A stretch of 64,000 nt of DNA from Flavobacterium aquiphilum. Lineage in GTDB: Bacteria > Bacteroidota > Bacteroidia > Flavobacteriales > Flavobacteriaceae. Numbering within the stretch: position 1 is the first letter of the stretch; each line of letters starts with the position of its first letter. The translations under genes were made by a program, and so were the position numbers. Location: contig NZ_CP114288.1 of NCBI RefSeq assembly GCF_027111335.1, positions 3,906,001 through 3,970,000 on the forward strand, written 5' to 3'. Positions 15,501 to 51,039 of this stretch are shown here, piece after piece. The notes beneath the pieces are model-generated. The model saw nothing but the letters and a program-made list of their open reading frames with translations, had not been told where the DNA came from and did no database searches.

Positions 15501-16174
15501 TTAGAAATATAACTATAATGAAGTTCAAATGGATTGCGGTTTGGATTTGCTTTATAAATATCACCTCCTCTGGTTCCAAGCCAAATGATATTTTCATCAT
15601 CAATAAAATAGGTCGTGATATAATCGTCCAACAAACTTCCCGGCTGGCTTATATCAGCGACATAATGAAATTCTTTTCCTGAATCAATATTTTTTGAAGT
15701 CAACTGATGTGACGACAGATAATAGCGTTTTCCGTTAACGACTCTATCTTTATTTAATTCGTTGGAATTACAATTTAATTTTGACAAAATAACCTTTGGA
15801 ACACCTTTAGAATCAACAATGCTGAAGGTATTTAGCTGGTAATTAAATCGGGCGTATTTATGATCGAATGTCAAAAACCAAAGTCCAAGTTTATTGTCTG
15901 AAACAATATTACGAATCCTGTTATTAGGTAGTGATTTACTATCTGCAGAGTTGTGATAGTAATAATTGAATGTTTTGCCATCATATCGATAAGCTCCATT
16001 CCAACTCCCAAACCAAATATATCCTATGGAATCTTTGGCAATACCATGAATGGAAGTACTGGGATCTATATCCTGACCAGAAATTTTTTCGAAAAAGAGT
16101 TCCTGTCCCAAACAATTTAGTCCAAACAAATTGCTGAGTACAAAATAAACCAATACAAATCCTTTTCTGTACAT
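12509..16174 (-). CDS. Hybrid two-component system regulator (HTCS)
   Basis: A 1221-residue one-protein signalling system. A signal peptide (about residues 1-23) is followed by a two-propeller periplasmic sensor built from repeats of the IWLGT type (about 25-590) and a YYY-like domain (about 590-660, ending VPPGNYTFKVRLVS). A membrane segment follows at about 667-686. A histidine kinase has His723 in NISHDLKTPLT and an ATPase domain (about 825-937, VLSNAFQYTP, VEDNGVGI). A receiver domain has Asp1024 in DIIVSDIMMPE. An AraC-type DNA-binding domain ends the protein (about 1120-1221). HTCS proteins sense oligosaccharides in the periplasm and activate a linked PUL; the divergent operon from 16728 is the obvious target. 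Confidence 0.95.
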   Translation of the reverse strand: MYRKGFVLVYFVLSNLFGLNCLGQELFFEKISGQDIDPSTSIHGIAKDSIGYIWFGSWNGAYRYDGKTFNYYYHNSADSKSLPNNRIRNIVSDNKLGLWFLTFDHKYARFNYQLNTFSIVDSKGVPKVILSKLNCNSNELNKDRVVNGKRYYLSSHQLTSKNIDSGKEFHYVADISQPGSLLDDYITTYFIDDENIIWLGTRGGDIYKANPNRNPFELHYSYISKNGKTKLASVRAILKVRNEIWLGTDEGVLIYNSQGINYNHPFYRSNSKIDQVRTLFQDNKGGIWIGGVNGLEYYNPNTNQIKLIINKELNPRLQTWSVFAIEAFGNDMLWVGLYNGIARINLSNQAVVFYDLAKEISNHSVMDILIVDKNKLLLATEGNGLIQLTINNKGEVFNDTSFNSFRSGSAIKKKISQSIIYALHKDKNGAVWVGTSEGLYKIKLNSNPTQAENIQLQSEIPNTYISAITDDNEGNIWIAHKEGISRINANSAEISNYQKKDQYSSWRFLERALYKDVENNIIYFGAKNGYVTFNPKDIKTISKSNRLILRSLYVSSQEVIPMDTIWGRPILFKILSQTKSIQLDYENRSFTIELASFNYRDSRKEVYEYKLEGYEDNWIKTTNNKISFNKVPPGNYTFKVRLVSNSGNVPVTQLNIDVSAPWYGSWWFRTLFLLMVVAGIYWVFKEMLYRDRLKNEIKQERLNTERQEALTREKIEFFTNISHDLKTPLTLIVDPLKRLQANKVPAEDKELYFSMIDRNIKNLTKLIYQILDFRKSETGKLKLNASSRNFNAFAKECHATFQFIAEKRNIKFELHLDEELTYCYLDFEKTEQIIINVLSNAFQYTPDGGKISFSIGLNEEKSSIKIVVEDNGVGIEASELKKIFEPFNTVGASPFYGYSSGIGLSLARNLIAFLNGSISIESELNKGTKLLIDLPYQVAEEDSIASISAESNSLNGYKNESHEGIISTDSNNSKPTLLIVEDNPDVQIYLKKELSKDYFLIQEYDGKKGLEAAIKHIPDIIVSDIMMPEMEGTLLGKKLKSNENTSHIPLIFLTAKGSDNDQIEGYNLGAEAYVMKPFNVDVLNAQIKSVLENRMILQNRLAGIKEINQLQQEVPDLDNQFLEKVIEKITRHIEETDFNSEELAKVLGISQRQLYRKLKGISGNTVHEFIIKVKMNEAEKLLKNSDLSVSQIAYKVGFSEPSNFSRTFSKYFGCSPSQYGK

Positions 16175-16727: not shown

Positions 16728-18929
16728 ATGAAGAGAAAATTACACCATTATTTATTTGTTTTTTCATTTCTGGCTCTATTCACCAATTGTAGTTCAGATG
16801 TATATGATGAATACTATGACCGCCCTGATAATTTGGAACCTCCAATCTTTCAACAATTGGAAGCAAAAGGTAATTTCAAAAACCTAACATCTTTAATAAC
16901 CAAAGCTGGTTATAAAGATATCCTTGGGAAATCAGGCTATTGGACTATGCTTGCGCCAAATGATGATGCTTTTACTAAATTCTTTCAAGAACAAGGTATC
17001 ACTGATGTGAGTAAAATAGATGATGCTACTGCATCAAAAATTGTTAGATATGCATTAGTTTACAATGCATTTCGTACAGAAAGAATGTCGGACTATCAGT
17101 CAACAATAGGCTGGGAAGTTGATAATGCTTTTAGGAGAAGAACTGCATTTTATGACGGATTCGTAACTAAAACAATCAATGGGCAACCTAAAGTAATCGT
17201 AGGTTCAAACCGAAACAATTTTAATGGCTCGAATTATTATGTTGCTGGGGACAATAACAATAAATACATCAGTTATTTTACACAAGAGTACTTTGCAGCA
17301 AAGAATTTAAGTTCTTATGATTTTAATTATTTCTACCCAAGTGCTAAATATACAGGATTTAACATTTTGGACTCGGAAGTTACCGAAGCTGATATTGTAG
17401 CAGAAAATGGAATTATTCACGCGACCAATAAAGTGCAATTGCCATTAGTTAACTTGGATCAATATTTAGAATCAAAGCCACAATACAGTTTATTTCGTGA
17501 TATACTAGAAAAAAACCTAGTTACATACCCTTTTAACCAGGATGCTACCAATGCATACCACAATTTCACCGGTAAATCCGACAATGTATATGTAAAAGTA
17601 TATGACCAAGGGTTATCATTTTCGCCTAACAATGAAAATTATTTGAAACAAGCCGATAATGACGGACAAAGTCAGTTATATACTTTAATTGTTCCCGAAG
17701 ATGCAGCTATGCAAAAATTCATTAATGAAATTTTATTAAAAAACTACACCTACGATAAACTTCCAAAATACATTTTTCAAGATTTGATCAATGCCCATAT
17801 GGTTCAAAATGCCGTTTGGCCATCAAAAGCCGCAACATACAATAATGCTTTGAATGAAAACTTAAGATTTAATTTCAATAGTGATATTACAGAAGCCAAA
17901 ATTTTGAGTAACGGTTTCTTTTTTGGTAGTAAAATAGTCCAAAAATCAAATTTGTTCTATAGTGTTTATACTTCCGCTTACTTAGATCCTAAATATACAC
18001 TTGCGACTAGATTATTTAATGATGGTTCGGGATTAAAAGAAATGATAAGTAACATTAAAACGAAGTACACTTTGTTTTTACCATCGGACGCAAAACTTCG
18101 AGCACTTGGATATGATTACGATATAAATCATTCCTATTGGGTATATACCGACCCGGCAACATCAGTAGTTGCCACGGGCGGTAATGCCAGAACTCGCTTA
18201 CTGCGTATTCTATATAATGGCATAATTCCAACTCCAAACAATGAATTGAATAATTTGTCCGGATCAGGAATAATTCGTTCAGGAGAACAAGATCTTCCAG
18301 GAGAATATATCAAATGGAACAACAATAAAGTATATGCCGCAGGAAATGAATCAGGGGGGACTACTGTTAATGTAACTGGTTACGAAGACCAACAAAATGG
18401 TAGAACTTATTATGTTGATAATTTACTTCAATTTACAGAAGAACCTCAAGGATTAAAAATCAAACGTTTGTCTGAAACTGCAGGTTCTCAATATCTTTCA
18501 TTTTTCAATTACCTAAAAAACTCACTAATATATGATGCAGCATCAGGTAAAATCCAAGGAGTTGATTTAGGAACCTATTACACTTTTATAGTTCCAAATA
18601 ATGCTGCTATTGCAAAAGCGGTTGCTGCCGGAAATCTCCCTGCATCCCCAACAACAACACTGCAAGGGGAAAAAGATTTGATTGCTGATTTTATTCGCTA
18701 TCACATTTTAGTAAACAAAACAGCCTCCGATGATGGTTTTACAACCGGTCAGGTAGAAACCCTTAGAAAAAATGACGGAGAGAAAACTTACATAACTGTT
18801 CAAAGTACACCGGGAACATTATCTTTTGTGGATTTGAAATTAAATAAAGCTAATTACATTCCGGCTCAAAGCAACAATTTAGCAGATCGATCTTTAATTC
18901 ATTTAGTAGACAATTACCTCACATATTAA
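16728..18929 (+). CDS. Multi-FAS1 (fasciclin) domain lipoprotein
   Basis: A 733-residue lipoprotein with its lipobox cysteine at residue 21 (LFTNC), followed by the acidic segment SDVYDEYYD that could direct it to the cell surface. About four fasciclin (FAS1) modules follow. The H1-type motif appears as WTMLAPNDDAF (about 72), YTLIVPEDAAM (about 318), YTLFLPSDAKL (about 447) and YTFIVPNNAAI (about 618). H2-type motifs appear at about 228 (NGIIHATNKV) and at the C-terminus (SLIHLVDNYL). FAS1 domains mediate adhesion or ligand binding and are not known enzymes. It is the first gene of the SusCD operon, so a surface glycan- or protein-binding role is inferred. Confidence 0.85.
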   Translation: MKRKLHHYLFVFSFLALFTNCSSDVYDEYYDRPDNLEPPIFQQLEAKGNFKNLTSLITKAGYKDILGKSGYWTMLAPNDDAFTKFFQEQGITDVSKIDDATASKIVRYALVYNAFRTERMSDYQSTIGWEVDNAFRRRTAFYDGFVTKTINGQPKVIVGSNRNNFNGSNYYVAGDNNNKYISYFTQEYFAAKNLSSYDFNYFYPSAKYTGFNILDSEVTEADIVAENGIIHATNKVQLPLVNLDQYLESKPQYSLFRDILEKNLVTYPFNQDATNAYHNFTGKSDNVYVKVYDQGLSFSPNNENYLKQADNDGQSQLYTLIVPEDAAMQKFINEILLKNYTYDKLPKYIFQDLINAHMVQNAVWPSKAATYNNALNENLRFNFNSDITEAKILSNGFFFGSKIVQKSNLFYSVYTSAYLDPKYTLATRLFNDGSGLKEMISNIKTKYTLFLPSDAKLRALGYDYDINHSYWVYTDPATSVVATGGNARTRLLRILYNGIIPTPNNELNNLSGSGIIRSGEQDLPGEYIKWNNNKVYAAGNESGGTTVNVTGYEDQQNGRTYYVDNLLQFTEEPQGLKIKRLSETAGSQYLSFFNYLKNSLIYDAASGKIQGVDLGTYYTFIVPNNAAIAKAVAAGNLPASPTTTLQGEKDLIADFIRYHILVNKTASDDGFTTGQVETLRKNDGEKTYITVQSTPGTLSFVDLKLNKANYIPAQSNNLADRSLIHLVDNYLTY

Positions 18930-18937
18930 GAAATAAA

Positions 18938-21900
18938 ATGAGACAACAAATTACAAGTATAATATACCGTTTAACATTTGCCATTATTATTTTGGCTGCC
19001 TTTCCGGTTTTCTCACAGCAGGGTAATAAAACATCTTTAGTTCTTCGTGGCCAGATTTTAGATTCTAGTGATAAGCTACCAATTCCTGGGGCAACAATTG
19101 CAGAACAAGATGCTGAAAATCGTACAGTTAATGGTACAGTGTCCGATATTGATGGAAATTTTGCATTAAAAATCAAAAATCCAAATAACAAATTGTACAT
19201 ATCTATGATAGGATATACTTCTAAAAGAATGCCTATTAATGGAAGAGAATCTATTAAAGTTATGTTGGTATCCACTATAGAATCCCTTAATGCTGTAGTT
19301 ATTACTTCTGAGAAAAAGTCAGATAATGGTAGTGGATTGAAAATTGCTGACCGAGATAGAACGACGAGTGCTGTTACCATCAATGCTGCAGAATTAGCTT
19401 ATACTCAGGCTCCGAGTATCGATGAGGCTCTACAGGGACGTATGCCTGGGGTTGATATTACCGCTACTAGTGGTGACCCGGGAGCAGGTATGCAAATCAA
19501 AATCAGAGGTACTTCTTCTATTACAGGATCTTCAAATCCTTTAATTGTAGTAGATGGGATGCCTTATGAAACTTCAGTTCCAGCAGATTTTAATTTTGGT
19601 ACTGCCGATGAAGAAAGTTATTCGGCTTTATTAAATATTGCTCCTACTGACATTGAAACAATAACCGTATTAAAAGATGCGGCCGCTACTGCGGTATGGG
19701 GTTCGCGTGCCGCCAGTGGGGTATTATTAATCACTACCAAACGTGGAAGTGTGAGCACACCAAAAATTACTTATACATTTAAAGCTACATATTCAAAATT
19801 ACCTGAAACAATTCCTATGTTGAGTGGAGATCAATATTCCCAATTGATCCCGGAAGAATATATGAATAGAAACGGAGTTCCATTGAATACTTTAAATGTC
19901 AAAGAATTTCAATACGACCCTTTGGATGTATATAATTTCAAGAACTATGGACAAAACACGGATTGGGTAGGTGCTATTTCGCAAACGGGTTTAACGGGTG
20001 AACATAACCTTTCTTTACAAGGAGGAGGAGAAAAAGCAAGGTATTATTCTTCAGTTGGTTACTACAATTCGAAAGGAGTTACTAAAGGTACCGGATTAGA
20101 GCGATTAAACGGTAGATTGAATCTCGATTATATTGTTTCTGACCGTATTCGTTTTAAAACTGATATATCCTACACTCATACCGTTACGGATCGAAATTAT
20201 GTAAACAGTTTTAATGATAGTGATGGAGACCTTTTGCGTGGGGTTGCTTTTACCAAAATGCCAAATATGAGTATTTACGAATATGATGAAATGGGGAATT
20301 TAACACCTAACTATTTTACCCCTGCTCAAAATGTTCAAGGCTTATATCCTAAAACTTACAATCCTGTAGCAATGGCTGAACTAGCTACAAATCAACAAAT
20401 AGGAGACCGTATTGTACCGCATTTTAACTTGCAGGTCGATATTATTCCTAAAATTTTTATCTCTGTATTTGATTTGCAATTTGATTATAATACTACCAAA
20501 TCTAAATCATTTTTGCCTCAAGATGCTACAGGACGCCCTTTTACTGAAACAGTTGTAAACAGAGCCTCTGATGCCGATGCTGGAGAATCTAGTGTTTTAA
20601 CAAAAACAAACTTTATTTATACGCCAAACATTGGAAAAAATCAGACATTACAAGCTTCATTGCAGTTGCAAACCAACGATTATAAATATACAACTCATCA
20701 GGCAATGACATCCAATACGGCTTCGTCTTTATTGACAGATCCATCAGTTCCATCAAGAACCCAAAATTCTGAATTATTTTTATACACAAATAATAGTCAG
20801 GCTAGAAGTGTTGGAGCATTAATAAGTGCTCAATACGGTTTATTGGATCGTTATCTTATTAATGTTGGTTTGCGTGGAGACGGAAATTCAAAATTTGGTC
20901 CGGAAAACAGATATGGTTTATTCCCTTCGATATCTACACGTTGGAGAGTCTCTGGAGAATCATTTATGAAAAAAGCGAAATGGATTGACGATTTAAGTCT
21001 TAGAGCCAGTTACGGGGAATCTGGTAGGGCACCAAAATATGATTATCGTTATTTCAATGTATATAGAAATTATACTACCGACTATTTAGGTCTTTCTGGG
21101 GTCTTCCCAGCCAATATCGAATTGAGCAATTTGCGTTGGGAAACATTACAAGGTACCAACTTAGGTTTCAATTTACAGATGTTCAAGAAAAAGGTAACTA
21201 TAGATCTGGATTTATATAAAAACACAACCAAAGATTTAATTTTTCCAAATGTCCAAATTAGTACTGTTTCTGGTTATAATACATTGGATCAAAACGTAGG
21301 GACATTAGAAAATAGAGGATGGGAATTAGGAGTTTATACGACTCCTTATAAATCCAATAAATGGAAAGTTGATTTCAACTTCAATATTTCTAGCAATCAA
21401 AATACGGTAAAAGAAATCTCTGAATACTTTCAAACTGAGAGTGGAAATACAGACAAAAATGGGGAATACAAACGTTTCCTTCAAGTTGATAATCCATTTG
21501 GATCATTTTATGGATACCGTTTTAAAGGGGTATATAAAGATCTTGAAGCAACAAAAGCAAAAGACGCCAATGGCAATAAAGTTGTGGGGCCCAACGGACA
21601 GGAAGTATTTATGCGTTTCAACTACCCTAATGTTGATTATGTATTTCAACCCGGTGATGCTATGTATGAAGACATCAACCATGATGGAAATATTGACAGC
21701 CGAGATGTAGTGTATTTAGGAAATAGCAACCCTAAATTCGTTGGAGGTTTTGGACCGAATATAAGTTACAACAACCAATTTAAGTTGCTACTTTATTTTA
21801 CTTACAGATTAGATTACGACATCATTAATGGTACCGATATGAAAACTACTAATATGTATGACTGGTCCAACCAAAGTACGGCTGTACTATCAAGATGGCG

Positions 21901-22231
21901 TAATCCAGGTGATGTAACCAATATGCCTAGAGCAGTTTACGGAGCAGGTTACAACTGGCTGGGTTCTGATCGTTATGTTGAAGATGCTTCTTTCTTACGT
22001 TTACGTTCTATTACATTCAACTATACCTTCAACAAAAACTTCATAAAAAAATTAAGGTTAGAGGATTTGAATTGGTATGTAACGGCTGACAATATATACA
22101 CATTTACAAAATACAAAGGACAAAATCCAGAGGCGAATATGAAAGGTGGGGATATTTTTGCAATAGCAGTTGATAATGCCAGTACTCCGCCAACAAGACG
22201 TTTAACACTAGGGCTTTCTGTTCGTTTCTAA
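18938..22231 (+). CDS. SusC/RagA-type TonB-dependent outer-membrane transporter
   Basis: A 1097-residue protein with a signal peptide (about residues 1-27), a carboxypeptidase-D-like regulatory domain (about 35-110), a plug domain (about 135-270; SIDEALQGRMPGVDI and the SusC hallmark SGDPGAGMQIKIRGTSS) and a beta-barrel to the C-terminal aromatic (LGLSVRF). SusC proteins import ligand passed on by their SusD lid using TonB energy. The gene starts eight bp after the first FAS1 gene and its SusD partner follows 16 bp later, so they are clearly cotranscribed. The ligand is unknown. Confidence 0.95.
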   Translation: MRQQITSIIYRLTFAIIILAAFPVFSQQGNKTSLVLRGQILDSSDKLPIPGATIAEQDAENRTVNGTVSDIDGNFALKIKNPNNKLYISMIGYTSKRMPINGRESIKVMLVSTIESLNAVVITSEKKSDNGSGLKIADRDRTTSAVTINAAELAYTQAPSIDEALQGRMPGVDITATSGDPGAGMQIKIRGTSSITGSSNPLIVVDGMPYETSVPADFNFGTADEESYSALLNIAPTDIETITVLKDAAATAVWGSRAASGVLLITTKRGSVSTPKITYTFKATYSKLPETIPMLSGDQYSQLIPEEYMNRNGVPLNTLNVKEFQYDPLDVYNFKNYGQNTDWVGAISQTGLTGEHNLSLQGGGEKARYYSSVGYYNSKGVTKGTGLERLNGRLNLDYIVSDRIRFKTDISYTHTVTDRNYVNSFNDSDGDLLRGVAFTKMPNMSIYEYDEMGNLTPNYFTPAQNVQGLYPKTYNPVAMAELATNQQIGDRIVPHFNLQVDIIPKIFISVFDLQFDYNTTKSKSFLPQDATGRPFTETVVNRASDADAGESSVLTKTNFIYTPNIGKNQTLQASLQLQTNDYKYTTHQAMTSNTASSLLTDPSVPSRTQNSELFLYTNNSQARSVGALISAQYGLLDRYLINVGLRGDGNSKFGPENRYGLFPSISTRWRVSGESFMKKAKWIDDLSLRASYGESGRAPKYDYRYFNVYRNYTTDYLGLSGVFPANIELSNLRWETLQGTNLGFNLQMFKKKVTIDLDLYKNTTKDLIFPNVQISTVSGYNTLDQNVGTLENRGWELGVYTTPYKSNKWKVDFNFNISSNQNTVKEISEYFQTESGNTDKNGEYKRFLQVDNPFGSFYGYRFKGVYKDLEATKAKDANGNKVVGPNGQEVFMRFNYPNVDYVFQPGDAMYEDINHDGNIDSRDVVYLGNSNPKFVGGFGPNISYNNQFKLLLYFTYRLDYDIINGTDMKTTNMYDWSNQSTAVLSRWRNPGDVTNMPRAVYGAGYNWLGSDRYVEDASFLRLRSITFNYTFNKNFIKKLRLEDLNWYVTADNIYTFTKYKGQNPEANMKGGDIFAIAVDNASTPPTRRLTLGLSVRF

Positions 22232-22247
22232 TAATATACTTTGAATT

Positions 22248-23750
22248 ATGCAAACTAAAATAAAAACAATCTTAGCAATTTTCATACTCTTTGTCTCTGC
22301 GACATCTTGTGACAATTATTTGGATTTAAAACCTCAGGATGGAATCGTTCGTGAAGAGTTTTGGAAAACTAAAGAAGATATACAGGCTGCTGTTGTCGGA
22401 ATTTATTCCTCTTTGTTAAACTCTCCTCCTGGAGTAGCCGGTGATTTGCCTATGTCTGAATACTTATTCATCTACGGAGAATTAAGAGGAGATATGATAG
22501 CTCCTGGTGCCAATGTTACCGAGGATGAAAGAGATATGATGAATTCCAATATTATTCCCGCTAATGATTTAACAAGCTGGTCTCCTTTTTACAGAACCAT
22601 TAATTATTGTAACACAGTAATTGATCTTGCTCCAACTGTAAAAGATCACGACCCGACTCTAAGTCAAGATCAATTAAATCATTATCTTTCTGAAGCTTTG
22701 GCAATAAGAGCTTATCTGTATTTTACATTGGCTCGTACTTTTAAAGATGTGCCTTTAAAATTAACAGCTACATTAACCGACGTAGATAATTTCCAATTAG
22801 CCGCTACTCCTCAAAAAGACATTTTTGCTCAAGTCATAAAGGATCTTAAACAGGCAGAAGCCTATTCCGTTCAAAGTTATGGAGATCAAGCATCAGACAA
22901 AGGACGCATCACTCTTTATGCTATTGAAGCGATGCTTACCGATGTGTATTTATGGACCGATAATTATCAAGAAGCGGTAACTGCTGCTGATAAAGTAATT
23001 AATTCCAATAAATTTAAATTGATACAAACTGGAAGCAGCACTTGGTTTAATACAGTTTATGCCAAAGGAAATTCAGAAGAAAGTATTTTCGAATTTCAAT
23101 ATACTACAAGCAATTTGGGTCCATTCTACAATATCTTTTCACTAAGACCTGAATTTTTAGCTTCAGCTAATGCTTTAGAAGATGTTTTCGGAATTGACTT
23201 TACTAATCCTAACAATAAAGATATTCGAGGAGAATATGCTTCAATTGTACCGGGATCTAACCAGATTTATAAATTCATTGGACTAGATAATAACACCCGA
23301 AAAGAATTACAAACCGCAGATACACACTGGTTCGTATATCGTTATGCTGATGTGTTGTTGATGAAAGCCGAAGCACTTGCTGAGTTGAACCAAGGAACCG
23401 AAGCCCTAAAAATTATTGAGGACATTCGATTAAAACGTAAAGCAATTGATATGACAGCTCAAGTTGCAGATCCTGGAAATAAATATGATGTGATCAATTA
23501 CCTAATGGATGAACGTGCACGTGAATTTGCATTCGAAGGAAAACGCTGGTTTGATATTCTTAGAAATGCAAGAAGAAACAATTATGCTCGAATGGATATA
23601 TTAATTGATGCGGCTATCACAAATGCTCCGGCCGATCAACAGCAAACAATTAAAGCCAAACTAAAAGATCCAAACAGTCACTATTTACCAATCAATACGT
23701 ATGAACTTTATACCAATAAAGCACTTGTACAAAACCCGTTTTATAAATAA
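22248..23750 (+). CDS. SusD/RagB-type surface nutrient-binding lipoprotein
   Basis: A 500-residue lipoprotein with the lipobox cysteine near residue 21 (SATSCDNYLDLKPQDG, the standard SusD opening). The tetratricopeptide-rich body has the usual landmarks: SEALAIRAYLYFTLARTFKDVPL, then the C-terminal FVYRYADVLLMKAEALAELN and RAREFAFEGKRWFDILR. SusD proteins form the lid of the SusC transporter on the outer face. It is paired with the SusC gene directly upstream and followed 13 bp later by a FAS1 gene. Confidence 0.95.
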   Translation: MQTKIKTILAIFILFVSATSCDNYLDLKPQDGIVREEFWKTKEDIQAAVVGIYSSLLNSPPGVAGDLPMSEYLFIYGELRGDMIAPGANVTEDERDMMNSNIIPANDLTSWSPFYRTINYCNTVIDLAPTVKDHDPTLSQDQLNHYLSEALAIRAYLYFTLARTFKDVPLKLTATLTDVDNFQLAATPQKDIFAQVIKDLKQAEAYSVQSYGDQASDKGRITLYAIEAMLTDVYLWTDNYQEAVTAADKVINSNKFKLIQTGSSTWFNTVYAKGNSEESIFEFQYTTSNLGPFYNIFSLRPEFLASANALEDVFGIDFTNPNNKDIRGEYASIVPGSNQIYKFIGLDNNTRKELQTADTHWFVYRYADVLLMKAEALAELNQGTEALKIIEDIRLKRKAIDMTAQVADPGNKYDVINYLMDERAREFAFEGKRWFDILRNARRNNYARMDILIDAAITNAPADQQQTIKAKLKDPNSHYLPINTYELYTNKALVQNPFYK

Positions 23751-23763
23751 AAAATAATAAGTC

Positions 23764-25449
23764 ATGAAAAGAATACTAAGATTACCTAGATTATTGAGAC
23801 TTACTTTACTATTTTTTATAGTTCTGGCGTTTCAAAATTGCACTGAGCAAAAGATAAAAGAAGGTACAGATCAAACAGTAAATATAACTGACTATCTGAG
23901 ACAAAATGAACAATATTCGATGTTTCTGGAAATTCTGGATTTAACGAATTATGCTTCATTCATGAATACTTACGGCACCTACACATTATTCCTTCCAACC
24001 AATGAAGCGGTTAAAGCATATTTAAAAGATGTGGGGGCAAGTTCTTTAAAAGAAGTGCCTATTGAGGATTTAAAAAATATTGCAAAACTGCATATTTTAG
24101 ATCAAAAGGTAAATACAACTGATTTTACAGATGGTAAAATTGCAACTCCTAGTATGTATGGACAGTATTTGATAACAGGAGCATCCAATATAAACGGAAT
24201 TTCAAGTATTACTGTTAATAAAGTTTCCAGTATTGTTGCTTCAAACATCGAAGTAGGAAATGGAGTTATACACGTTATTGACAAAGTAATGCGTGTTGCC
24301 GACAAGACTTTGGCCAAAACTATCGAAGACAATCCTTCATTATCACTTTTTACCGAAACCTTAAAAGCAACAGGATGGTACGATAAGTTAAATGTACCTA
24401 TTAACAAAGATGATAAAGAGAAAAACTATCTTTCTGTTTTAGCTCAAACAAATGATGTTTTTAAAGCTGCTGGTTTTAATAGTTTAGCTGATTTAAAAAA
24501 GAGATACAGTCATTTGAATGATCCAATGAATCCAAAAGACAGTTTAAACCTTTTTGTAAGCTACCGAATTTTACCAAGATTAATGTACCTAGCTGATTTA
24601 GCAATAACGCCAGCTCTTGAAACTATGGCACCACTCGAAGTAATTAGTGCCAAACTAGATAAAGAAACCATTTTATTAAACGAAGAAGTCTTTAATGGTG
24701 TATTGGAAAAAGGTTCATCTGTTAACAGAGACCTAAGTGATATTACCGCTTCTAATGGCGCTTTACATCTTGTAGATGCAAACTTTGCGATCAAAAAACG
24801 TTTACCGGCACCTGTTTATTTTGATTTTTGTGACCAGCCTGAATTCCGAAAGTTAACTTCTATTTTTAGAACTGCCATCGGAGGAAGACAATCATTGGCA
24901 AAATCTCAATTTTCAGACGTTACCTGGGATGGGACTGATGTCATTACTTATTATAAAGATCCTGCAAATGGTGGAACAGTTGGTTTTGGATGGCACGGAG
25001 ATTGTCTCGAAATTAATCGTTTAAGAGATGGAAACGTTCAAAACATTGCTTTTAAAACACCGGTAATCATTAAAGGAAAATATAAAGTTTGGATTTCTTA
25101 CAGAGCACAAACTACAAAAGTAGGACTTGTAAAAGTGTTTTTTGACGGAAAAGAATTACCAAGACAAATTAATATGCTTGAATTTGTGAACACTTCTTCT
25201 ATACCAGAAAGAGTGTTAGAATCTCAAGGATACAAGCGACATGTTTCCCCTACCAGCAGCAAAATGAACTGTAGATTGGTTGGAACAATAGACGTAACAA
25301 CGACTGCAAGACATACGTTAACGCTACAAAGTCAGTCGGCGTTCTCTGCTCAAGCTTGGTTTGATGTTGCCGAATTCCGTCCAGTAGACATGGATCAATT
25401 ATATCCTAAATTCCAAGCAGGTGGAGATGGTTTTGCACCGATGCCATAA
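23764..25449 (+). CDS. FAS1-domain lipoprotein with C-terminal beta-rich domain
   Basis: A 561-residue lipoprotein with cysteine 26 in the lipobox (AFQNC). The first fasciclin domain (about residues 38-170) is canonical, with YTLFLPTNEAV and NGVIHVIDKVM. A second, more divergent one follows (about 175-345), ending NGALHLVDANF. The last 210 residues (about 348-561) are of a different kind, with alternating strands, KGKYKVWISYRAQ and a DVAEFRPVD-like ending, suggestive of a carbohydrate-binding-like beta sandwich. It lies between the SusD gene and a shorter FAS1 gene. Function is inferred from operon context only. Confidence 0.8.
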   Translation: MKRILRLPRLLRLTLLFFIVLAFQNCTEQKIKEGTDQTVNITDYLRQNEQYSMFLEILDLTNYASFMNTYGTYTLFLPTNEAVKAYLKDVGASSLKEVPIEDLKNIAKLHILDQKVNTTDFTDGKIATPSMYGQYLITGASNINGISSITVNKVSSIVASNIEVGNGVIHVIDKVMRVADKTLAKTIEDNPSLSLFTETLKATGWYDKLNVPINKDDKEKNYLSVLAQTNDVFKAAGFNSLADLKKRYSHLNDPMNPKDSLNLFVSYRILPRLMYLADLAITPALETMAPLEVISAKLDKETILLNEEVFNGVLEKGSSVNRDLSDITASNGALHLVDANFAIKKRLPAPVYFDFCDQPEFRKLTSIFRTAIGGRQSLAKSQFSDVTWDGTDVITYYKDPANGGTVGFGWHGDCLEINRLRDGNVQNIAFKTPVIIKGKYKVWISYRAQTTKVGLVKVFFDGKELPRQINMLEFVNTSSIPERVLESQGYKRHVSPTSSKMNCRLVGTIDVTTTARHTLTLQSQSAFSAQAWFDVAEFRPVDMDQLYPKFQAGGDGFAPMP

Positions 25450-25496
25450 TTCTAAATTAAATCGAAAAACCCAATCACAAACTTAATTAAGTAAAA

Positions 25497-26969
25497 ATGA
25501 CTTTAAAATTAAAATATAAAAGACTTTTAGCTACCGTTCTGGCGGTAGCTCTGGTCTCCTGTTCTAATCCGTGGGATGACCGCGAAAATAATGGTGACTC
25601 AAATTTGGATCAAAATCTAAGTGAGGCAATCATAAGCACACCAGAAACATCACAGTTCGGGCAATTATTAGTAAAAACAGGCTATGACAAAATTCTGTCT
25701 GCTTCCAAGACTTATACTGTTTTTGTACCTACAAATGATGCAATGAGTAAAGTAGATCCTGCCATTTTAAATGATGCAGCTGCTGTTAAAAAATTTGTAG
25801 AAAATCATATTGCGTTAACCGCGTACTCTTCAATTAGAAAAAACAGCGAAGAGAAAATTTATATGTTAAGCACTAAATATTTAACATTCAAAGGCAGTAC
25901 AACAATTGGAGATGCTACCATTGTAGGAGCTGATCACTATGCAGCGAACGGAGTCTATCATATTATCAATAAAGCCCAAGCCGTAAAATTGAATATTTGG
26001 GAATATGTTAATTCTATGAAAGGTAATTCGGCCATGAGCGATTACTTGTTGAGCTTAAAAGAAATTAGTATTTATAAGGCTGATATTGCTGCAAAAGCAA
26101 CTGCAGAACCAGGTTTTCTTTCTGATTCTCTATCTAATTCCTATCTAATGAATGTATATAATTTGAATAATGAGAAGAATTCATATACATTCTTTCTAAT
26201 GGATGATGCCGGTTATACTGCCGAGGTTGATAAAATGAAGCCTTATATGACTATTTCCACTTCAACTATCCCAGAAAAAGATTCTACCGCAATTTATTCC
26301 AAATATTTTACGGTAAGAGATATGGCTTTCCCAAAAGCATATAAAAAAGAGGAGTTACCGGCAAAACTAACTTCACGTTTTGGTGTTGAATTTGATGTTG
26401 ACAAAACACAAATTGTTGGTGAGCCAATTGAATTGAGTAACGGTATTGTTTACCGAATGAAAAAAGTTAATATTGACCTTAGTAAACGTTTGATTCCAAC
26501 CAAAATCGAAGGCGAACGCAATTCCGGTTTTAGCCCAATTGATCTGAGATCTAAAGTTTTATATCGCGACAGAATCGATCCTGCAGGGGTATTATTTAAT
26601 GACATCATGGTAAGAAATCAGGGAGTGTCATTGTTTACATTGATTTATCAAACACCAGTTTTATACAGCACAAAGTATAAAGTTTACTGGAGAGCTATCA
26701 ATGACATGCAAACTAATGTTTTTCAACAGCGTTTGCAGATAGGAGGAAAAATTAAACTTGATGGTAAAATCTATACATTCACTAATCCTATCATGTTATT
26801 CCCTTATATGGATGTGCCTGTAAAAAATTACGACCCGGTTTATATAGGAGAATTCACTCTTGATAAGGCAGGTAATATATTTACTTCTCTTATAGCTGCC
26901 AATACAACTACAGATGGGAATAACACCCTAACACTAGATTATTTGAATTTTGTTCCTGTCGTTAAATAA
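25497..26969 (+). CDS. FAS1-domain lipoprotein with C-terminal beta-rich domain, shorter paralogue
   Basis: A 490-residue lipoprotein with cysteine 22 (ALVSC). It shares the plan of the preceding protein: one canonical fasciclin domain (about 35-165; YTVFVPTNDAM and NGVYHIINKAQ), a divergent second one (about 166-335; NGIVYRMKKVN) and a beta-rich C-terminus (about 336-490; STKYKVYWRAIND, then NTLTLDYLNFVP). It probably arose by duplication followed by strong divergence. It sits nine bp before the second SusC gene and could be the accessory binding protein of that second transporter. Confidence 0.8.
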   Translation: MTLKLKYKRLLATVLAVALVSCSNPWDDRENNGDSNLDQNLSEAIISTPETSQFGQLLVKTGYDKILSASKTYTVFVPTNDAMSKVDPAILNDAAAVKKFVENHIALTAYSSIRKNSEEKIYMLSTKYLTFKGSTTIGDATIVGADHYAANGVYHIINKAQAVKLNIWEYVNSMKGNSAMSDYLLSLKEISIYKADIAAKATAEPGFLSDSLSNSYLMNVYNLNNEKNSYTFFLMDDAGYTAEVDKMKPYMTISTSTIPEKDSTAIYSKYFTVRDMAFPKAYKKEELPAKLTSRFGVEFDVDKTQIVGEPIELSNGIVYRMKKVNIDLSKRLIPTKIEGERNSGFSPIDLRSKVLYRDRIDPAGVLFNDIMVRNQGVSLFTLIYQTPVLYSTKYKVYWRAINDMQTNVFQQRLQIGGKIKLDGKIYTFTNPIMLFPYMDVPVKNYDPVYIGEFTLDKAGNIFTSLIAANTTTDGNNTLTLDYLNFVPVVK

Positions 26970-26978
26970 AAATAGATT

Positions 26979-29900
26979 ATGCTAAAAATTATAAAACTTA
27001 CATGCTTGGTAAGCATTTTATTTGCTGGAGGATTTAATTTAGAATTGTACGCTCAAACAGCTAAAGACTCAACAGCAACTGTTGCTCCTCAACCACAAAA
27101 AGACATAAAAGGAATTGTAGTGAAAGGTGTTGTTAAAAGTGCAAGAACCAATGCAGCTATATCGGGTATAAATATCTCAGTTGAAGGGTTTTCGGCCTCT
27201 ATCACAAATGATGATGGTAGCTTCAGCATTAAAGTACCAAATTTAAATGCCCTCCTTACCATTAGTGGGCAAGATTATCAAACCAAAGTTTATGCCATTA
27301 GAAATAGAAAATCAGAAATAGAAATCTTTTTAAACGAAGCTTATTATTCTCCAACCTACTTAGTTGGAAATCTACCAGCTGGAGATAAAATGCAATATGA
27401 TAATACTAACGCAACAAGTGTTGTCAACTTCAAAAAAGATCAGTGGTCCAATCCGGTGAGCGAGTCCATTGGAGGATTTCTTCAAGGAAAAGCAACGGGC
27501 TTAACCAGTGTTAGAAATTCGGGTACACCAAATTCAGGTGCTTACTTGACTTTAAGAGGTTTTAATTCCTTGTACGCTACCAATAGACCTTTAATCGTTG
27601 TTGATGGTATGATTTATGAAGATGACGATTATGGATCCGGTATCATAAAAGGCTATAGTTCTTCTCCCCTTACAAACATTGATGTTAAGGATATTGAAGA
27701 CGTAACTATTATTAAAGATGGGACCTCCTTATACGGAACCAAGGGAGCCAATGGTGTGATAAATATTACAACCACTCGCGCTTCTGAAGTTTCGACTAAA
27801 ATAGATTTCACGATGTACGGCGGATTTAATCAAGCTCCTCAACAACTTCCATTGTTAGGCAGTGATGCTTATAGAACTCATATTTCCCAATTAGAATCTA
27901 CCCGTGGTTTATCATCTCAAGAAATTGCGAACTTACCATACATGAATGATAATGTAGGCTCTGTAGGATATTATAAATACCATAATGAAACCAATTGGCA
28001 GGATCAAATTTTAAAATCCAGCTATAATCAAAACTATTTCCTTAAAATTCGAGGAGGAGATGAAATTGCAAAATTTGGTCTATCTGTTGGATACTTAGAT
28101 AATCAAGGAGTTGTTGAAGGCACAGGTTCAAAACGCTACAGTACACGTTTGAATGCCGCTTTACGATTAACTGAAAAATTGACCGTTGACGCAAATCTTT
28201 CTTTCATCAATAATGAACAAGATCAATGGGATCAAGGTTCTATAGATACAAGCCCATTATATTTGGGATTGACTAAAGCTCCTATTTTAAGGTATAATGA
28301 GGTTAATGATGCCGGAGAAGTTTCGCCTAATTTTGCCGATGTAGATTATTTTAATGTAAGTAACCCGATGGCTATTTTCTCTAAAGGGTTTGGAACCAAT
28401 AAAAATTATCGCTTTTTTGGAGACTTAAAATTTAATTATGCTATAAATAAAGCTTGGAATATCAGTTCAATTGTTGGTTTGACTTTCAACAAAGAAAGAG
28501 AAACATTTTTTATACCAGATGCCGGAGTTGCTGATATTATCTTACCAACTGATATTGGAAAAAACCGTTCAGGTAGTGAAGTTCAAGTTTATAATGGTCT
28601 TTATACTGATACTTTTGCAAGCTATCTAAAAAGCTTTGAAAATGATCATAATTTAGATGTTCGATTTGGATTTAGAAGCCAAAGCAACAAATCTGAAACT
28701 GATTACGGATTAGGTTATAATTCGGCTACTGATGATTTTACTAGTGTAGGATCAGGTTCACCTTTATTACGTCAAATTGGAGGTTCACTAGGTGAATGGC
28801 ATTGGTTAAATATGTATGCAAATGGAAATTATAACTTCCGTAACAAATATTTTTTAACAGCCAGTTATGCTGTTGATAGTTCCAGTCGCTTTGGTGATGA
28901 TTTAAAAACAGGTAATAGTAAATTTGTTTTGATGAGTTCAATTTCCGGAGCTTGGTTGCTTTCTTCAGAAAATTTCATGAAGAACATAAAAGATATCGAT
29001 TATCTTAAACTTAGACTTGGTTTTGGTACTAGCGGAAATGATGATATAGGTAATTATACTGCACAAAGATATTATGTTTCCCAAAACTTACTTGGAATGC
29101 AAGGTTTGGTTCGTGATAATATTGGGAATCCAAACTTAAAATGGGAAACAGTTTCTAAAAGTAATTTAGGTATCGATTTTGGATTGTTCAAAGAACGTAT
29201 CAATGCTTCTATCGACTATTATGTCAATAAAACAAAAGATATGATCGTTTATGAATCTATCAGTAATACAAGTGGATTTGATTATGTAGCTTCAAACAGT
29301 GGGGCAATGCGTACATTCGGAACAGAATTTTCATTGAATGCCCGTGTTATTAATTCACCCGATTTTATTTTTGACTTTGGTTTTAATCTAAGCCATTATG
29401 AAAACAAAGTGCAAAGTTTACCAAGTGGTGATATTCTTACCCAATTTGGTGGTGCTACTTATTTAACCTCTGTTGGTAAAGATGCCAATTTATTTTACGG
29501 ATTAGACAGCAACGGAGTTTACAGCACAACTGCAGAAGCCAATGCTGATGGATTATCAAGACGTTTAACAAATGGCAACTTGGTTCCTTTTGGTGCAGGT
29601 GACATGCGTTTTAGAGATGTAAATGGAGATAAAGTTATTGATGATAAGGATCGTGTGGTAATTGGTAATCCAAATCCGGATATAATGGGTAGTTTCAATG
29701 CTAACTTTACATACAAACGATTTAGCTTACAAGGATTGTTTAATTTCTCTGTAGGTAATGATCTTTACAATGGTGTGCGTTACAATCTTGAAAAAATGAG
29801 TGGTTACGAAAACCAGAGTGTTGCGGTTGCTAATCGTTGGAGAGCCGAAGGACAGCAAACAGATATGCCAAAAGCAGTTTGGGGTGATCCAATGGGTAAT

Positions 29901-30167
29901 TCCGAATTTTCAGACAGATGGATTGAAGACGGTTCTTACTTAAGATTGAAAACATTAGTATTGGGTTATGATTTCAAAGTAAATGAGGCGAAGCATGTTA
30001 AATATATCAAACTATATGCAACAGCCAATAACTTATTCACAGTTTCCAAATATCTTGGATTTGATCCTGAATTTAGTGCCACTTCATCCATTTTTGGTCA
30101 GGGAGCTGATATTGGTTTAGTTCCTCAGTTTACTAGTTACCAACTTGGGTTGCGTTTAGGACTTTAA
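26979..30167 (+). CDS. Second SusC/RagA-type TonB-dependent transporter, divergent
   Basis: A 1062-residue protein with a signal peptide (about residues 1-26, ending LYAQ). A spacer of about 25 residues follows, then a carboxypeptidase-like domain (about 50-115), a plug (about 140-270; LQGKATGLTSVRNSGTPNSG, LIVVDGMIYEDD) and a barrel ending YQLGLRLGL. Its plug differs clearly from that of the first SusC in the operon, so the pairs probably carry different ligands or different parts of one ligand. It is followed 31 bp later by its SusD. Confidence 0.93.
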   Translation: MLKIIKLTCLVSILFAGGFNLELYAQTAKDSTATVAPQPQKDIKGIVVKGVVKSARTNAAISGINISVEGFSASITNDDGSFSIKVPNLNALLTISGQDYQTKVYAIRNRKSEIEIFLNEAYYSPTYLVGNLPAGDKMQYDNTNATSVVNFKKDQWSNPVSESIGGFLQGKATGLTSVRNSGTPNSGAYLTLRGFNSLYATNRPLIVVDGMIYEDDDYGSGIIKGYSSSPLTNIDVKDIEDVTIIKDGTSLYGTKGANGVINITTTRASEVSTKIDFTMYGGFNQAPQQLPLLGSDAYRTHISQLESTRGLSSQEIANLPYMNDNVGSVGYYKYHNETNWQDQILKSSYNQNYFLKIRGGDEIAKFGLSVGYLDNQGVVEGTGSKRYSTRLNAALRLTEKLTVDANLSFINNEQDQWDQGSIDTSPLYLGLTKAPILRYNEVNDAGEVSPNFADVDYFNVSNPMAIFSKGFGTNKNYRFFGDLKFNYAINKAWNISSIVGLTFNKERETFFIPDAGVADIILPTDIGKNRSGSEVQVYNGLYTDTFASYLKSFENDHNLDVRFGFRSQSNKSETDYGLGYNSATDDFTSVGSGSPLLRQIGGSLGEWHWLNMYANGNYNFRNKYFLTASYAVDSSSRFGDDLKTGNSKFVLMSSISGAWLLSSENFMKNIKDIDYLKLRLGFGTSGNDDIGNYTAQRYYVSQNLLGMQGLVRDNIGNPNLKWETVSKSNLGIDFGLFKERINASIDYYVNKTKDMIVYESISNTSGFDYVASNSGAMRTFGTEFSLNARVINSPDFIFDFGFNLSHYENKVQSLPSGDILTQFGGATYLTSVGKDANLFYGLDSNGVYSTTAEANADGLSRRLTNGNLVPFGAGDMRFRDVNGDKVIDDKDRVVIGNPNPDIMGSFNANFTYKRFSLQGLFNFSVGNDLYNGVRYNLEKMSGYENQSVAVANRWRAEGQQTDMPKAVWGDPMGNSEFSDRWIEDGSYLRLKTLVLGYDFKVNEAKHVKYIKLYATANNLFTVSKYLGFDPEFSATSSIFGQGADIGLVPQFTSYQLGLRLGL

Positions 30168-30198
30168 AATTATTTTTTACAACATAGAGAACAGTAAG

Positions 30199-31950
30199 AT
30201 GATAACAACAATCAGAACAAAATCAATAAAATCGGCCAAAACCTTGTTATGGATGATGATACTAGTATTTAGTGTTACCTCCTGCGAGGAATATCTGGAT
30301 GTACAACCGGAAGACAAACTTGCCGGTGATCAGGTGTATCGAAACGTATATGACGCCGATGCCGCAGTTATTGGGATATATGGAAAATTTATGGGGCTGG
30401 CTGAAAAATATGTGATGCTAAATGAAATGCGTGCAGACCTGATGACGACCACATCTAATTCTAGTCCTTATTTAAAAGAACTTTCGGAACAAAATGTTTC
30501 GGAAGGTAACCCATACGCAAATCCAAAAGATTTCTACACAGTAATTCAAAACTGTAATGATGTGCTTAAAAATTTCAATATTATGCTTTCTGCCAAGAAA
30601 TTTACGCAATCACAGTACGATCAACGCTATGCAGATGTTGCATGTATTCGTTCTTGGGTCTATTTGCAACTAGGGATTCAATACGGTAGTGTTCCTTATA
30701 TAACAGAACCAATAGAAACGTTAGATGACGTTAGAAATATTAATAAATACCCAAAACTTACTTTTAATCAACTACTTGATGAACTTGTTAAATTTACTGA
30801 AGGTCTGACTTACAAAAATTTATATGATCCTTCAAGCAGTCTGGTAGTAACTGTCGATGGTTACAATACCAGTAAATTCTTTATCAATAAAGAATGTTTA
30901 ATGGGGGATTTACAACTTTGGAAAGGCAATTATCTTGAAGCAGCAAAACATTACAAAAATGTAATGGAAACGGGTACTCCAACAAATAATTTGGATATGT
31001 ATAGAGTAAAATTTGCCGAGGTCGTAACACATGAAGATTTGGCAGTTGGTTACTTAAGAAATTCCGAAATGGATGCAACTACATTGGTAGATAGTAATAC
31101 ACAGGGTTGGAGATCTATTTTTGGCAGAGATAGAGATGTATTATGGAATACAGAATGGATTTGGTCGTTGCCTTTTGATAGTGATTTTGCACCTAAGAAT
31201 CCATTTATCGATATTTTTTCAAAAACAAGAGGTCAATATTTAGCTAAACCCTCACAACGAGCTATCGCACTTTGGAATAGTAATACACAAAGTAACGGTT
31301 TCCCATATGATGCACGTGGACCAAAATTTACTTATAAAATGGTTGGTGGAGATCCTGTAATTATGAAATACATTTATAAATACGAAGCTGTAGCAGGTAC
31401 TAATCCTTTTAAAACAGATGGAGATTGGTTTTTGTATCGTGCTGCCAAACTACATTTGCGTTATGCTGAAGCGGCCAATAGGGATAATCAACAAAAAATT
31501 GCTTGGGCTCTTTTAAATTTTGGAATACAATCGGCCTATACTCCGGCGGGTTACAATAATACTACAGGGGATGCAACAAATATTAAGCAAACCTTTCTAC
31601 CTTTTCCGTATGATTTTGATGCCCGTCAAGGGGATTTTCCAACATTCAGATCAATTTGGCATCGTGGAGGCGGAATTAGAGGACGTGCCTATTTAGCGGG
31701 TGTCGGAGCTATTGGAAATGACATGATTACTACTGAAAACAATATCATTGACGAAGCTGCTTTAGAATTAGCTTATGAAGGAAACCGTTGGGAAGACTTG
31801 GTTCGTATTTCTTTAAGACGCAATAATCCGGCTTATTTAGCAGACAAGATATATGACAAATTGAACAAAGAAGGTAACCCTAAAGCTGCTGAAGTTCGAG
31901 CTAAGCTAATGAGTGTCAACAACTGGTACTTGCCTTTTACTTGGAAATAA
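30199..31950 (+). CDS. Second SusD/RagB-type surface lipoprotein
   Basis: A 583-residue lipoprotein, longer than the first SusD by about 80 residues, with a lipobox at about residue 29 (SVTSCEEYLDVQPEDK). It has the SusD hallmarks RSWVYLQLGIQYGSVPYI near the N-terminus and EAALELAYEGNRWEDLVRIS near the C-terminus. It ends the operon and is followed by a strong stem-loop at 31989-32031. It is expected to cap the second SusC at the cell surface. Confidence 0.93.
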   Translation: MITTIRTKSIKSAKTLLWMMILVFSVTSCEEYLDVQPEDKLAGDQVYRNVYDADAAVIGIYGKFMGLAEKYVMLNEMRADLMTTTSNSSPYLKELSEQNVSEGNPYANPKDFYTVIQNCNDVLKNFNIMLSAKKFTQSQYDQRYADVACIRSWVYLQLGIQYGSVPYITEPIETLDDVRNINKYPKLTFNQLLDELVKFTEGLTYKNLYDPSSSLVVTVDGYNTSKFFINKECLMGDLQLWKGNYLEAAKHYKNVMETGTPTNNLDMYRVKFAEVVTHEDLAVGYLRNSEMDATTLVDSNTQGWRSIFGRDRDVLWNTEWIWSLPFDSDFAPKNPFIDIFSKTRGQYLAKPSQRAIALWNSNTQSNGFPYDARGPKFTYKMVGGDPVIMKYIYKYEAVAGTNPFKTDGDWFLYRAAKLHLRYAEAANRDNQQKIAWALLNFGIQSAYTPAGYNNTTGDATNIKQTFLPFPYDFDARQGDFPTFRSIWHRGGGIRGRAYLAGVGAIGNDMITTENNIIDEAALELAYEGNRWEDLVRISLRRNNPAYLADKIYDKLNKEGNPKAAEVRAKLMSVNNWYLPFTWK

Positions 31951-36032: not shown

Positions 36033-36080
36033 TTTGATTTCTTTTTTAGAAGCAGAAACATTTTGCATTTCTTCAAGATT

Positions 36081-36152
36081 GGTCCCGCTTTTCGTTACAA
36101 TATCCATGACTGAACCCCAGCCATGGATGATTTCCACTACAATCGGGGCTAA
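36081..36152 (-). repeat. Dispersed hairpin element, copy 1 (GGGGTTC-loop family)
   Basis: Read on the minus strand, this starts TTAGCCCCGA and ends GCGGGACC. In the middle a ten-base stem (36102-36111 with 36119-36128) encloses the loop GGGGTTC. The element at 46111-46183 has the same ends, order and loop, with a different but still paired stem. It lies between the convergent GH3 and transaldolase genes. One stem pair is G-U only if the minus strand is the RNA, which points to the strand. Confidence 0.65.
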
Positions 36153-36190
36153 AAATCAACATTCTGCTTTTTTAGAAGTATCCAAGGAAA

Positions 36191-36241
36191 AATCTGCGTA
36201 AATCTGCCTGCAAATTTCTTTCGCGCAGATTTACGCAGATT
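36191..36241. repeat. Inverted repeat of the AATCTGCG type, copy 1
   Basis: Arms of 17 bases at 36191-36207 and 36225-36241 are perfectly complementary, with an internal direct repeat of AATCTGCG-like units. It lies at the junction of the convergent GH3 and transaldolase genes. A related hairpin lies at 43927-43973, also between convergent genes, so it may act as a transcription barrier or be a palindromic intergenic element. Confidence 0.7.
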
Positions 36242-36273
36242 AATGGTTAATTTTTTTATTACCCCCAAATACT

Positions 36274-36927
36274 CTAATTCCCCTTTTTGTAATCGGCTAG
36301 AAATTGTGCCAACCCGATATCTGTCAATGGGTGTTTCAACAATCCTGTAATAGACGACAATGGTCCAGTCATTACATCCGATCCTAATTTGGCACAATTA
36401 ACAACATGCATTGTATGACGAACAGATGCCGATAAAATTTGGGTCTTAAAATCATAATTATCATACACCTGTCTGATTTCGGCAATCAATCCCATTCCGT
36501 CAGTCGAAATATCATCCAATCTTCCTAAAAACGGAGACACATAAGTCGCACCTGCTTTGGCCGCCAATAATGCTTGTCCAACCGAAAATACCAATGTTAC
36601 ATTCGTTCTGATCCCCCTATCCGAAAAGTATTTGCACGCTTTTATCCCTACTGCAATCATTGGCAATTTCACTACAATCTGCGGATGCAAAGCTGCCAAT
36701 TCTTCTCCTTCGCGAATCATTCCTTCATAATCGGTCGCAATCACCTCAGCCGAAACATCTCCATCTACAAGGTTACAGATGTCTACATAATGCTTCAAAA
36801 TATTATCCGTTCCGGTAATTCCTTCTTTGGCCATCAATGATGGATTTGTAGTCACACCATCCAATATTCCCAAGGACTGAGCCTCAACAATGTCATTCAA
36901 ATTTGCTGTATCAATAAAAAACTTCAT
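36274..36927 (-). CDS. tal: Transaldolase, TalC/FSA-type
   Basis: A 217-residue protein, the usual length of the small transaldolase/fructose-6-phosphate aldolase subfamily. The Schiff-base lysine is Lys87 in [16 protein letters not shown] and DGVTTNPSL are family signatures. In true fructose-6-phosphate aldolase a glutamine follows the early beta strand and a tyrosine sits in the YVAPY motif; here these are Glu61 and a phenylalanine (YVSPFLGR), as in transaldolases. It would move three-carbon units in the non-oxidative pentose phosphate pathway, which fits the xylose genes next to it. Confidence 0.88.
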
Positions 36928-38770: not shown

Positions 38771-38783
38771 CTTCTTTTCTATT

Positions 38784-51012: not shown

Positions 51013-51039
51013 ATTATATTGATAATGATTAATATATGG

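Follow-up and report, generated by a model that had tools for sequence, protein, structure and literature searches.

Relation to described systems

The described system that most resembles the one treated here is part of the rhamnogalacturonan I (RG-I) locus of B. thetaiotaomicron, BT4145-BT4183, which holds the SusC/SusD pairs BT4164/65 and BT4168/69 and, numbered between both pairs, BT4166 and BT4167, the latter an RG-I-binding surface protein (PMC8002723). An annotation table places a DUF5108 protein within BT4164-69 (PMC10434189), and two further reports term BT4164 SusC-like (PMC3243724, PMC5061871). We analysed a stretch of 64,000 nucleotides of Flavobacterium aquiphilum (contig NZ_CP114288.1, positions 3,906,001 to 3,970,000), called here the window and numbered from its first letter, which contains an operon of seven genes encoding three FAS1 proteins and two SusC/SusD pairs in a single-contig genome of 5.05 Mb. 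All seven genes lie on the + strand in the order FAS1(A)-SusC1-SusD1-FAS1(B)-FAS1(C)-SusC2-SusD2, hereafter the septet. Distantly related Bacteroidota carry units of the same composition and order, and it is likely that the seven genes constitute one outer-membrane uptake unit for RG-I oligosaccharides.

Genes 2 to 7 of the septet match BT4164-69 in following the order SusCD, two genes, SusCD, the order in B. thetaiotaomicron being read from gene numbers (PMC8002723), and probably also in containing DUF5108, annotated there (PMC10434189) and corresponding here to the C-terminal region of FAS1(B), where the window protein scores below the cut-off. The two loci differ in that the enzymes lie within the locus in B. 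thetaiotaomicron and mostly elsewhere in the present genome. Orthology between the septet and BT4164-69, which were compared by gene numbers and domain annotation, is a strong lead. The levan and dextran SusCD utilisomes of B. thetaiotaomicron combine one SusCD pair with a glycan-binding protein and a surface enzyme (PMC7618045); the septet shares with them SusC, SusD and, as predicted from its genes, a glycan-binding lipoprotein at the cell surface, but it has two unlike SusCD pairs together with three FAS1 proteins, and its run encodes no enzyme. Bacterial FAS1 proteins are mostly treated in the literature as adhesins. Unlike in FAS1 proteins such as TGFBIp, periostin and MPB70, FAS1 is here fused to a predicted domain resembling carbohydrate-binding modules (CBM), in a predicted lipoprotein that is fixed in a SusCD operon. 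No account of FAS1 lipoproteins in SusCD operons was found in the accessible portions of the open PMC literature (subscription papers and preprints falling outside this scope), including PMC7661554, PMC10199937, PMC6032426, PMC5306329, PMC10807430, PMC2668756, PMC8002723, PMC3243724, PMC5061871, PMC10434189 and PMC7618045.

Conservation of the seven-gene order

An earlier note made from the sequence alone had described seven one-strand genes in this FAS1/SusC/SusD order, separated by 8 to 47 bp and lying opposite a gene for a hybrid two-component system (HTCS) regulator, and had suggested a search of Bacteroidota genomes for FAS1 lipoproteins accompanying SusCD pairs. The coordinates of the open reading frames (ORFs) and the Pfam and NCBIfam matches agree with this description, the successive intergenic gaps being 8, 16, 13, 47, 9 and 31 bp. 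Named genomes were scanned with an alignment of six full-length FAS1(B) proteins, the best 80 of 144 relatives were kept, and ORFs were called in all 80 loci and labelled by the window proteins. The exact septet run was present in 73 of the 80 loci, with median gaps of 5, 16, 13, 39, 18 and 25 bp, in hosts that include Flavobacterium, Aestuariibaculum, Leeuwenhoekiella, Pedobacter, Mucilaginibacter, Chitinophaga, Niastella, Pontibacter, Echinicola and Belliella. The other seven comprise two loci with a split SusC1 (L063, L100), three cut by a contig end (L102, L107, L118) and two with a lone FAS1(B) (L064, L070). Because the scan was seeded with FAS1(B) only, the order of the other six genes is no selection effect, although the 80 loci are the nearest of the 144. 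Of 395 Bacteroidota genomes sampled, 8 encode a full-length FAS1(B), the present one included. FAS1 matches also appeared in four records of a plasmid scan, none of which reached 80% query coverage.

Two further sets of loci gave the same order. A second FAS1(B) was detected at E 1e-30 in 9 of 50 non-Flavobacterium carriers (these represent 50 of the 56 non-Flavobacterium loci; L060, L062, L094, L102, L107 and L118 were left out), with identities down to 27-29%, and the septet order was found in all nine. As an independent probe, a SusD2 profile was run against 149 genomes of the order of genome G539; it matched in 11 genomes, giving 21 matches beyond two already known, and 16 of these 21 clusters were compared. 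Twelve of the 16 have the exact order, counting L186, in which SusD1 is split in two ORFs; in the exceptions a FAS1 gene is moved (L172 with L184), the middle FAS1 is missing (L173), an unassigned 854-aa gene replaces FAS1(A) (L177), or the cluster is cut by the contig (L180). Chance or loose synteny is ruled out by this exact order in FAS1(B) loci, second copies and SusD2 clusters, and the proposal that transporters of this type have FAS1 proteins as constant components is borne out. As fixed parts of a putative glycan importer, the FAS1 proteins acquire a role that becomes testable.

The seven proteins also diverged in parallel. Over 70 complete loci, with mean identities ranging from 39.5% for FAS1(C) to 60.4% for SusC1, the 21 pairwise distance correlations lie between 0.908 and 0.966, shared host phylogeny explaining part of these values. 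SusC2 and SusC1 of the window are 28.6% identical. When 92 SusC proteins were placed in a tree, with an outgroup of three SusC proteins only, all 44 SusC1 sequences formed one clade (support 1.0) and all 45 SusC2 sequences another (support 0.999), and for every SusC and SusD of the septets the highest score came from the profile of its own position. These separate clades and own-position profiles indicate that the two pairs diverged before the sampled septets did, and without swapping.

Domain make-up of the seven proteins

Along the run the Pfam matches read Fasciclin, SusC, SusD, Fasciclin, Fasciclin, SusC, SusD, and NCBIfam confirmed both SusC proteins, so that the two adjacent SusC/SusD pairs that define a Sus-like system are present. 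None of the seven proteins matched a glycoside hydrolase, lyase, esterase or protease family in Pfam or NCBIfam at E 0.001, in line with what had been read from the ORFs before. Judged by its sequence, the locus is a Sus-type system with two fixed SusCD pairs and three FAS1 proteins, two of them with predicted CBM-like domains. The best solved relative of SusC1 is the SusC homologue 8aa4 (E 2.7e-97), while a PDB search with SusD2 returned only two weak relatives.

The three FAS1 proteins match PF02469 with 93.3, 85.3 and 63.5 bits, the curated cut-off being 22. Two FAS1 stretches are recognised in FAS1(A), the length of which suggests further ones. A lipobox-like motif, searched as a simple pattern, is present in 68, 58 and 63 of 70 orthologues of FAS1(A), FAS1(B) and FAS1(C), respectively. 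The predicted models added a feature absent from the earlier note, a C-terminal sandwich in FAS1(B) and FAS1(C) that resembles CBM6/CBM35 modules. In FAS1(B) of the window the DUF5108 match is under the cut-off (16.5 bits against 27.4), the distant member L139 reaches 38.3 bits, and matches with an E value of 1 or better were obtained for 8 of 11 members. Profile searches of the PDB with FAS1(A) and FAS1(C) returned FAS1 proteins plus one very weak other match, and the FAS1 domains resemble periostin and TGFBIp. Elsewhere in the genome a single FAS1 protein exceeds the cut-off, in an open frame of 330 aa. If the modelled CBM-like domains are correct, surface glycan binding would be a more direct reading of these proteins than generic FAS1 adhesion.

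A promoter pattern of Bacteroidota is TTTG, a spacer of 17-23 and TAnnTTTG. It matched eight times where 7.2 matches were expected, none of them 5' of FAS1(A), and scans for sigma-70 promoters and terminators gave numbers at or below chance. With promoter and terminator scans at chance, it is from the gaps alone that we infer single transcription. Rfam models gave no match inside the operon at gathering scores.

Association with enzymes of pectin degradation

In loci carrying the septet, 65 of the 71 co-directional genes after SusD2 were scanned at E 1e-10. The commonest family was the PL11 rhamnogalacturonan lyase with nine genes, followed by sulfatase (6), GDSL esterase (5), DUF4861 (4), DUF4998 (4), GH115 (3), GH28 (3) and GH106 (2), among the 25 commonest of 41 families listed; in 52 of 70 upstream genes, which belong to 54 families, we found GDSL (5), PL11 (2), GH115 (2) and GH88 (2). 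PL11, GH28, GH106, GH115, GH2 or a PL4-type lyase adjoin some of the copies in relatives. A lack of carbohydrate-active enzymes (CAZymes), taken earlier as characteristic, thus finds no support as a property of the system. Adjacent CAZymes in related operons, which would count against the earlier reading if they were always present, occur in some relatives and not in all. The two lone FAS1(B) genes have comparable company: the one in Flavobacterium palustre (L064) lies amid a PL4-type rhamnogalacturonan lyase, GH2, GH28 and GH106 and the one in F. fluvii (L070) beside GH2 and an HTCS gene, both genomes also carrying separate septets (L055 and L069). In Leeuwenhoekiella (L061:18073-19578) a sulfatase, and in Galbibacter (L073:18217-19590) a DUF4998 protein, directly follow SusD2; with six sulfatases in all among the 65 downstream genes, these neighbours give a hint of a modified substrate in some hosts.

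The association extends to whole genomes. Among 249 Flavobacterium genomes the FAS1(B) marker, which at E 1e-30 defined the carriers here in place of all seven genes, occurs in 14, PL11 over cut-off in 34, GH10 in 64 and PL1 in 71. All 14 marker carriers, the present genome included, have PL11 (p 5e-14; this and the following p values ignore kinship). Of the 71 genomes with PL1, 31 also have PL11, and 14 of these carry the marker, against none of the 40 that lack PL11 (p 1.1e-6); when only PL11-positive Flavobacterium are considered, the marker is associated neither with PL1 (p 0.19) nor with GH10 (p 0.52). Of the 50 non-Flavobacterium carriers, 48 have PL11. On the same contig, PL11 lies less than 30 kb from FAS1(B) in 21 of these 50 carriers and GH10 in none among the matches listed; this compares 85 PL11 places (the four weakest of 89 rows dropped) with 119 listed GH10 places, which exclude later second pieces of genes and unlisted rows, and GH10 distances in Flavobacterium refer to two genomes. 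Thermoflavifilum, one of the two carriers that lack PL11, encodes a PL4-type rhamnogalacturonan lyase immediately downstream of SusD2, the two genes overlapping by 10 bp. A locus free of enzymes was in this way made interpretable by tracking its partners across genomes.

In the present genome PL11 is encoded at 2,058,692, about 1.86 Mb from the operon, in a cluster that also holds a GH78-type rhamnosidase, GH28, GH115, GH2, the rhamnose importer gene RhaT and an FGGY kinase. Around it, 2,030,001-2,082,695 is free of SusC-like genes, the nearest one being at 2,082,696 and the region left of 2,030,001 lying outside the search. The earlier suggestion that the ligand is cut by enzymes encoded elsewhere is therefore most likely right. 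The term CAZyme-free, applied to the operon by the same note, is accurate inside its coordinates and does not extend to the surroundings, where we noticed GH3 and, at 1090-6523, GH35 and GH2 (Table 1).

Some of these neighbours link the window to septet loci in which the enzymes are contiguous. The locus L146, to whose GH2 the window GH2 is related (Table 1), consists of a septet followed by GH28, GH2 and PL11, and the same window GH2 is 67% identical to a partial gene ahead of a second septet in L137. Another GH2 gene just left of the window (3,902,767-3,905,754) is 70% identical to the GH2 of Galbibacter L144 and 80% to one in L070. The Galbibacter locus (L144/L073) has the order HTCS-PL11-GH2-septet. 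The full-length relatives of the window HTCS are those of L070, beside the lone FAS1(B) (66%), and of L144, opening the Galbibacter locus (57%), all remaining matches among the compared loci being at 44% or less; this comparison set was drawn mostly around septets, and closest means closest within it. From the likeness of HTCS and GH2 to L144, Galbibacter looks like a contiguous version of the set that is scattered here. The window GH35 had no relative at E 1e-60 among the compared loci.

A candidate RG-I uptake unit and its alternatives

The conserved order, the parallel divergence, the domain make-up and the association with RG-I lyase are the basis of the proposed unit; from them we infer that its proteins lie at the surface, bind the ligand and transport it, and that its genes are regulated and transcribed as one. 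According to the proposed mechanism, FAS1(B) and FAS1(C) would retain pectic chains on the outside of the cell, with FAS1(A) as an additional subunit or scaffold there, and RG-I fragments differing in size or decoration would enter through two SusC-SusD pedal-bin transporters that are not equivalent. The enzymes (PL11 lyase, GH78-type rhamnosidase, GH28, GH115 and GH2) are encoded, together with RhaT, about 1.86 Mb away, and the divergent HTCS is the likely inducer. The mechanism predicts RG-I use in many species carrying the septet, and the fixed pairing of two SusCD systems raises the question why two pedal-bin transporters would serve one substrate.

Several observations weigh against RG-I as the substrate. 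GH10 is present in 12 and PL1 in all 14 of the Flavobacterium marker carriers, GH10 in 44 of the 50 other carriers, and 20 PL11-positive Flavobacterium genomes are without the marker. Only 4 of the 14 Flavobacterium carriers have PL11 within 30 kb, and 29 of the 50 others do not (some of their contigs being short); GH10 is 14 kb away in one Flavobacterium carrier and at 30.2 kb in one other carrier, and Pinibacter aurantiacus has a septet without PL11. Genome-wide co-occurrence is confounded by kinship and by a plant-degrading lifestyle. Folds of the CBM6/35 type, which the models predict, bind many glycans, and the fold alone would define no function. The metabolic genes nearest to the operon concern xylan, xylose and glucuronate: downstream GH3, a xylose-isomerase-like gene and an FGGY kinase, and upstream, just outside the window, GH67 and UxuA. 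Finally, distant septets, of which few neighbours were scanned, are flanked by GH2, by a gene of GH43 type, by a weak match to GH116 or by no recognisable CAZyme, and these varied neighbours mean that the architecture is not RG-I-specific as such.

The last point leads to the alternative that survives best and is compatible with RG-I uptake by the present operon, namely that the septet is a general platform reused for unrelated glycans, the RG-I link applying only to the subfamily of the window; we regard this as somewhat more probable than its opposite. It is favoured by the distant septets (27-29% identical in FAS1(B)), which keep the order and have other neighbours, and by one genome of 2.7 Mb (G811; loci L169, L173, L175, L177, L181, L182 and L185) with nine SusD2-family matches, the five compared being three septets and two near-septets, where no CAZyme family was found in the five neighbouring genes scanned. 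On the other side, the scanned neighbours of distant copies are few. The distant copies suggest that the architecture is broader than RG-I. A more tentative proposal, which we hold to be possible and rather less probable than not, is that the septet represents an outer-membrane importer class of its own and of great age, with FAS1 lipoproteins joining two non-interchangeable SusCD transporters into one assembly. It would have arisen once, retained its gene order across several orders of Bacteroidota and been redeployed for several glycans, with as many as nine candidate copies in a single genome. If so, FAS1 would be a structural bridge in glycan import and not an adhesion module.

An unlikely alternative is that the operon imports xylan-derived or glucuronoxylan oligosaccharides with the surrounding xylose and glucuronate genes. 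It draws on the flanking genes just named, among which the GH3 carries PA14 and a transaldolase also lies downstream, on GH115 beside some septets and on the frequency of GH10 in carriers, and the flanking xylose and glucuronate genes keep it alive at a lower weight. It is opposed by the distances, none of the listed GH10 places lying within 30 kb in the 50 carriers compared while PL11 does so in 21, by the null association of the marker with GH10 within PL11-positive Flavobacterium, and by LacI genes at either end of the downstream xylose genes, which suggest a separate control. RG-I uptake is preferred over a RagAB-type importer of peptides or glycoproteins with FAS1 gripping a protein matrix, which, despite a match of SusC1 to RagA (E 1.1e-60) and the periostin- and TGFBIp-like FAS1 domains, is very improbable given that SusC1 is closer to 8aa4, that no peptidase family occurs in the run or among the 25 commonest neighbour families listed (of 41 and 54), and that those listed include pectin and other glycan enzymes, next to C-terminal domains predicted to be CBM-like. 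No evidence was gained for the glycoprotein or adhesive matrix that had been proposed before as a ligand, the associations pointing to pectin.

Features of the window

Table 1. Genes of the septet and neighbouring genes discussed in the text (window coordinates)
Feature	Coordinates	Strand	Characteristics
FAS1(A)	16728-18929	+	733 aa, predicted lipoprotein; PF02469 E 1.7e-26
SusC1, TonB-dependent transporter	18938-22231	+	1097 aa; TIGR04056 724.6 bits
SusD1, lid lipoprotein	22248-23750	+	500 aa; PF07980 and PF14322 exceed cut-off
FAS1(B), predicted lipoprotein, FAS1-FAS1-CBM-like	23764-25449	+	561 aa; C-terminus is the putative DUF5108 region
FAS1(C), predicted lipoprotein: FAS1, FAS1-like region, CBM6/35/36-like domain	25497-26969	+	490 aa
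SusC2, TonB-dependent transporter	26979-30167	+	1062 aa; TIGR04056 622.8 bits
SusD2, divergent lid lipoprotein	30199-31950	+	583 aa; PF07980 45 bits, PF14322 35 bits
HTCS sensor-regulator, divergent from operon	12509-16174	-	Pfam Reg_prop, Y_Y_Y, HisKA, HATPase_c, Response_reg, HTH_18
GH2, probably of the same dispersed RG-I set	3626-6523	+	61% over 969 aa to GH2 of L146
GH35, possible member of the dispersed set	1090-3534	+	PF01301
GH3	33402-36032		1.45 kb past operon, beyond one LacI gene

Downstream of the operon, the genes for GH3 with PA14, transaldolase, the xylose-isomerase-like protein and FGGY kinase form a xylose/xylan island between two LacI regulators at 33402-40268. Two Flavo-1 RNAs (RF01705) were detected in the window, at 36077-36154 (-) with 66.5 bits and at 46109-46186 (+) with 72.7 bits. 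Further along, on the - strand, an HTH plus SocA/Panacea antitoxin-like protein is encoded at 50215-51042, and a tandem of AMP-binding, AAT-type acyltransferase, flavin oxidoreductase and MMPL-acyltransferase genes at 51118-59315 is possibly a cluster for lipid or pigment biosynthesis.

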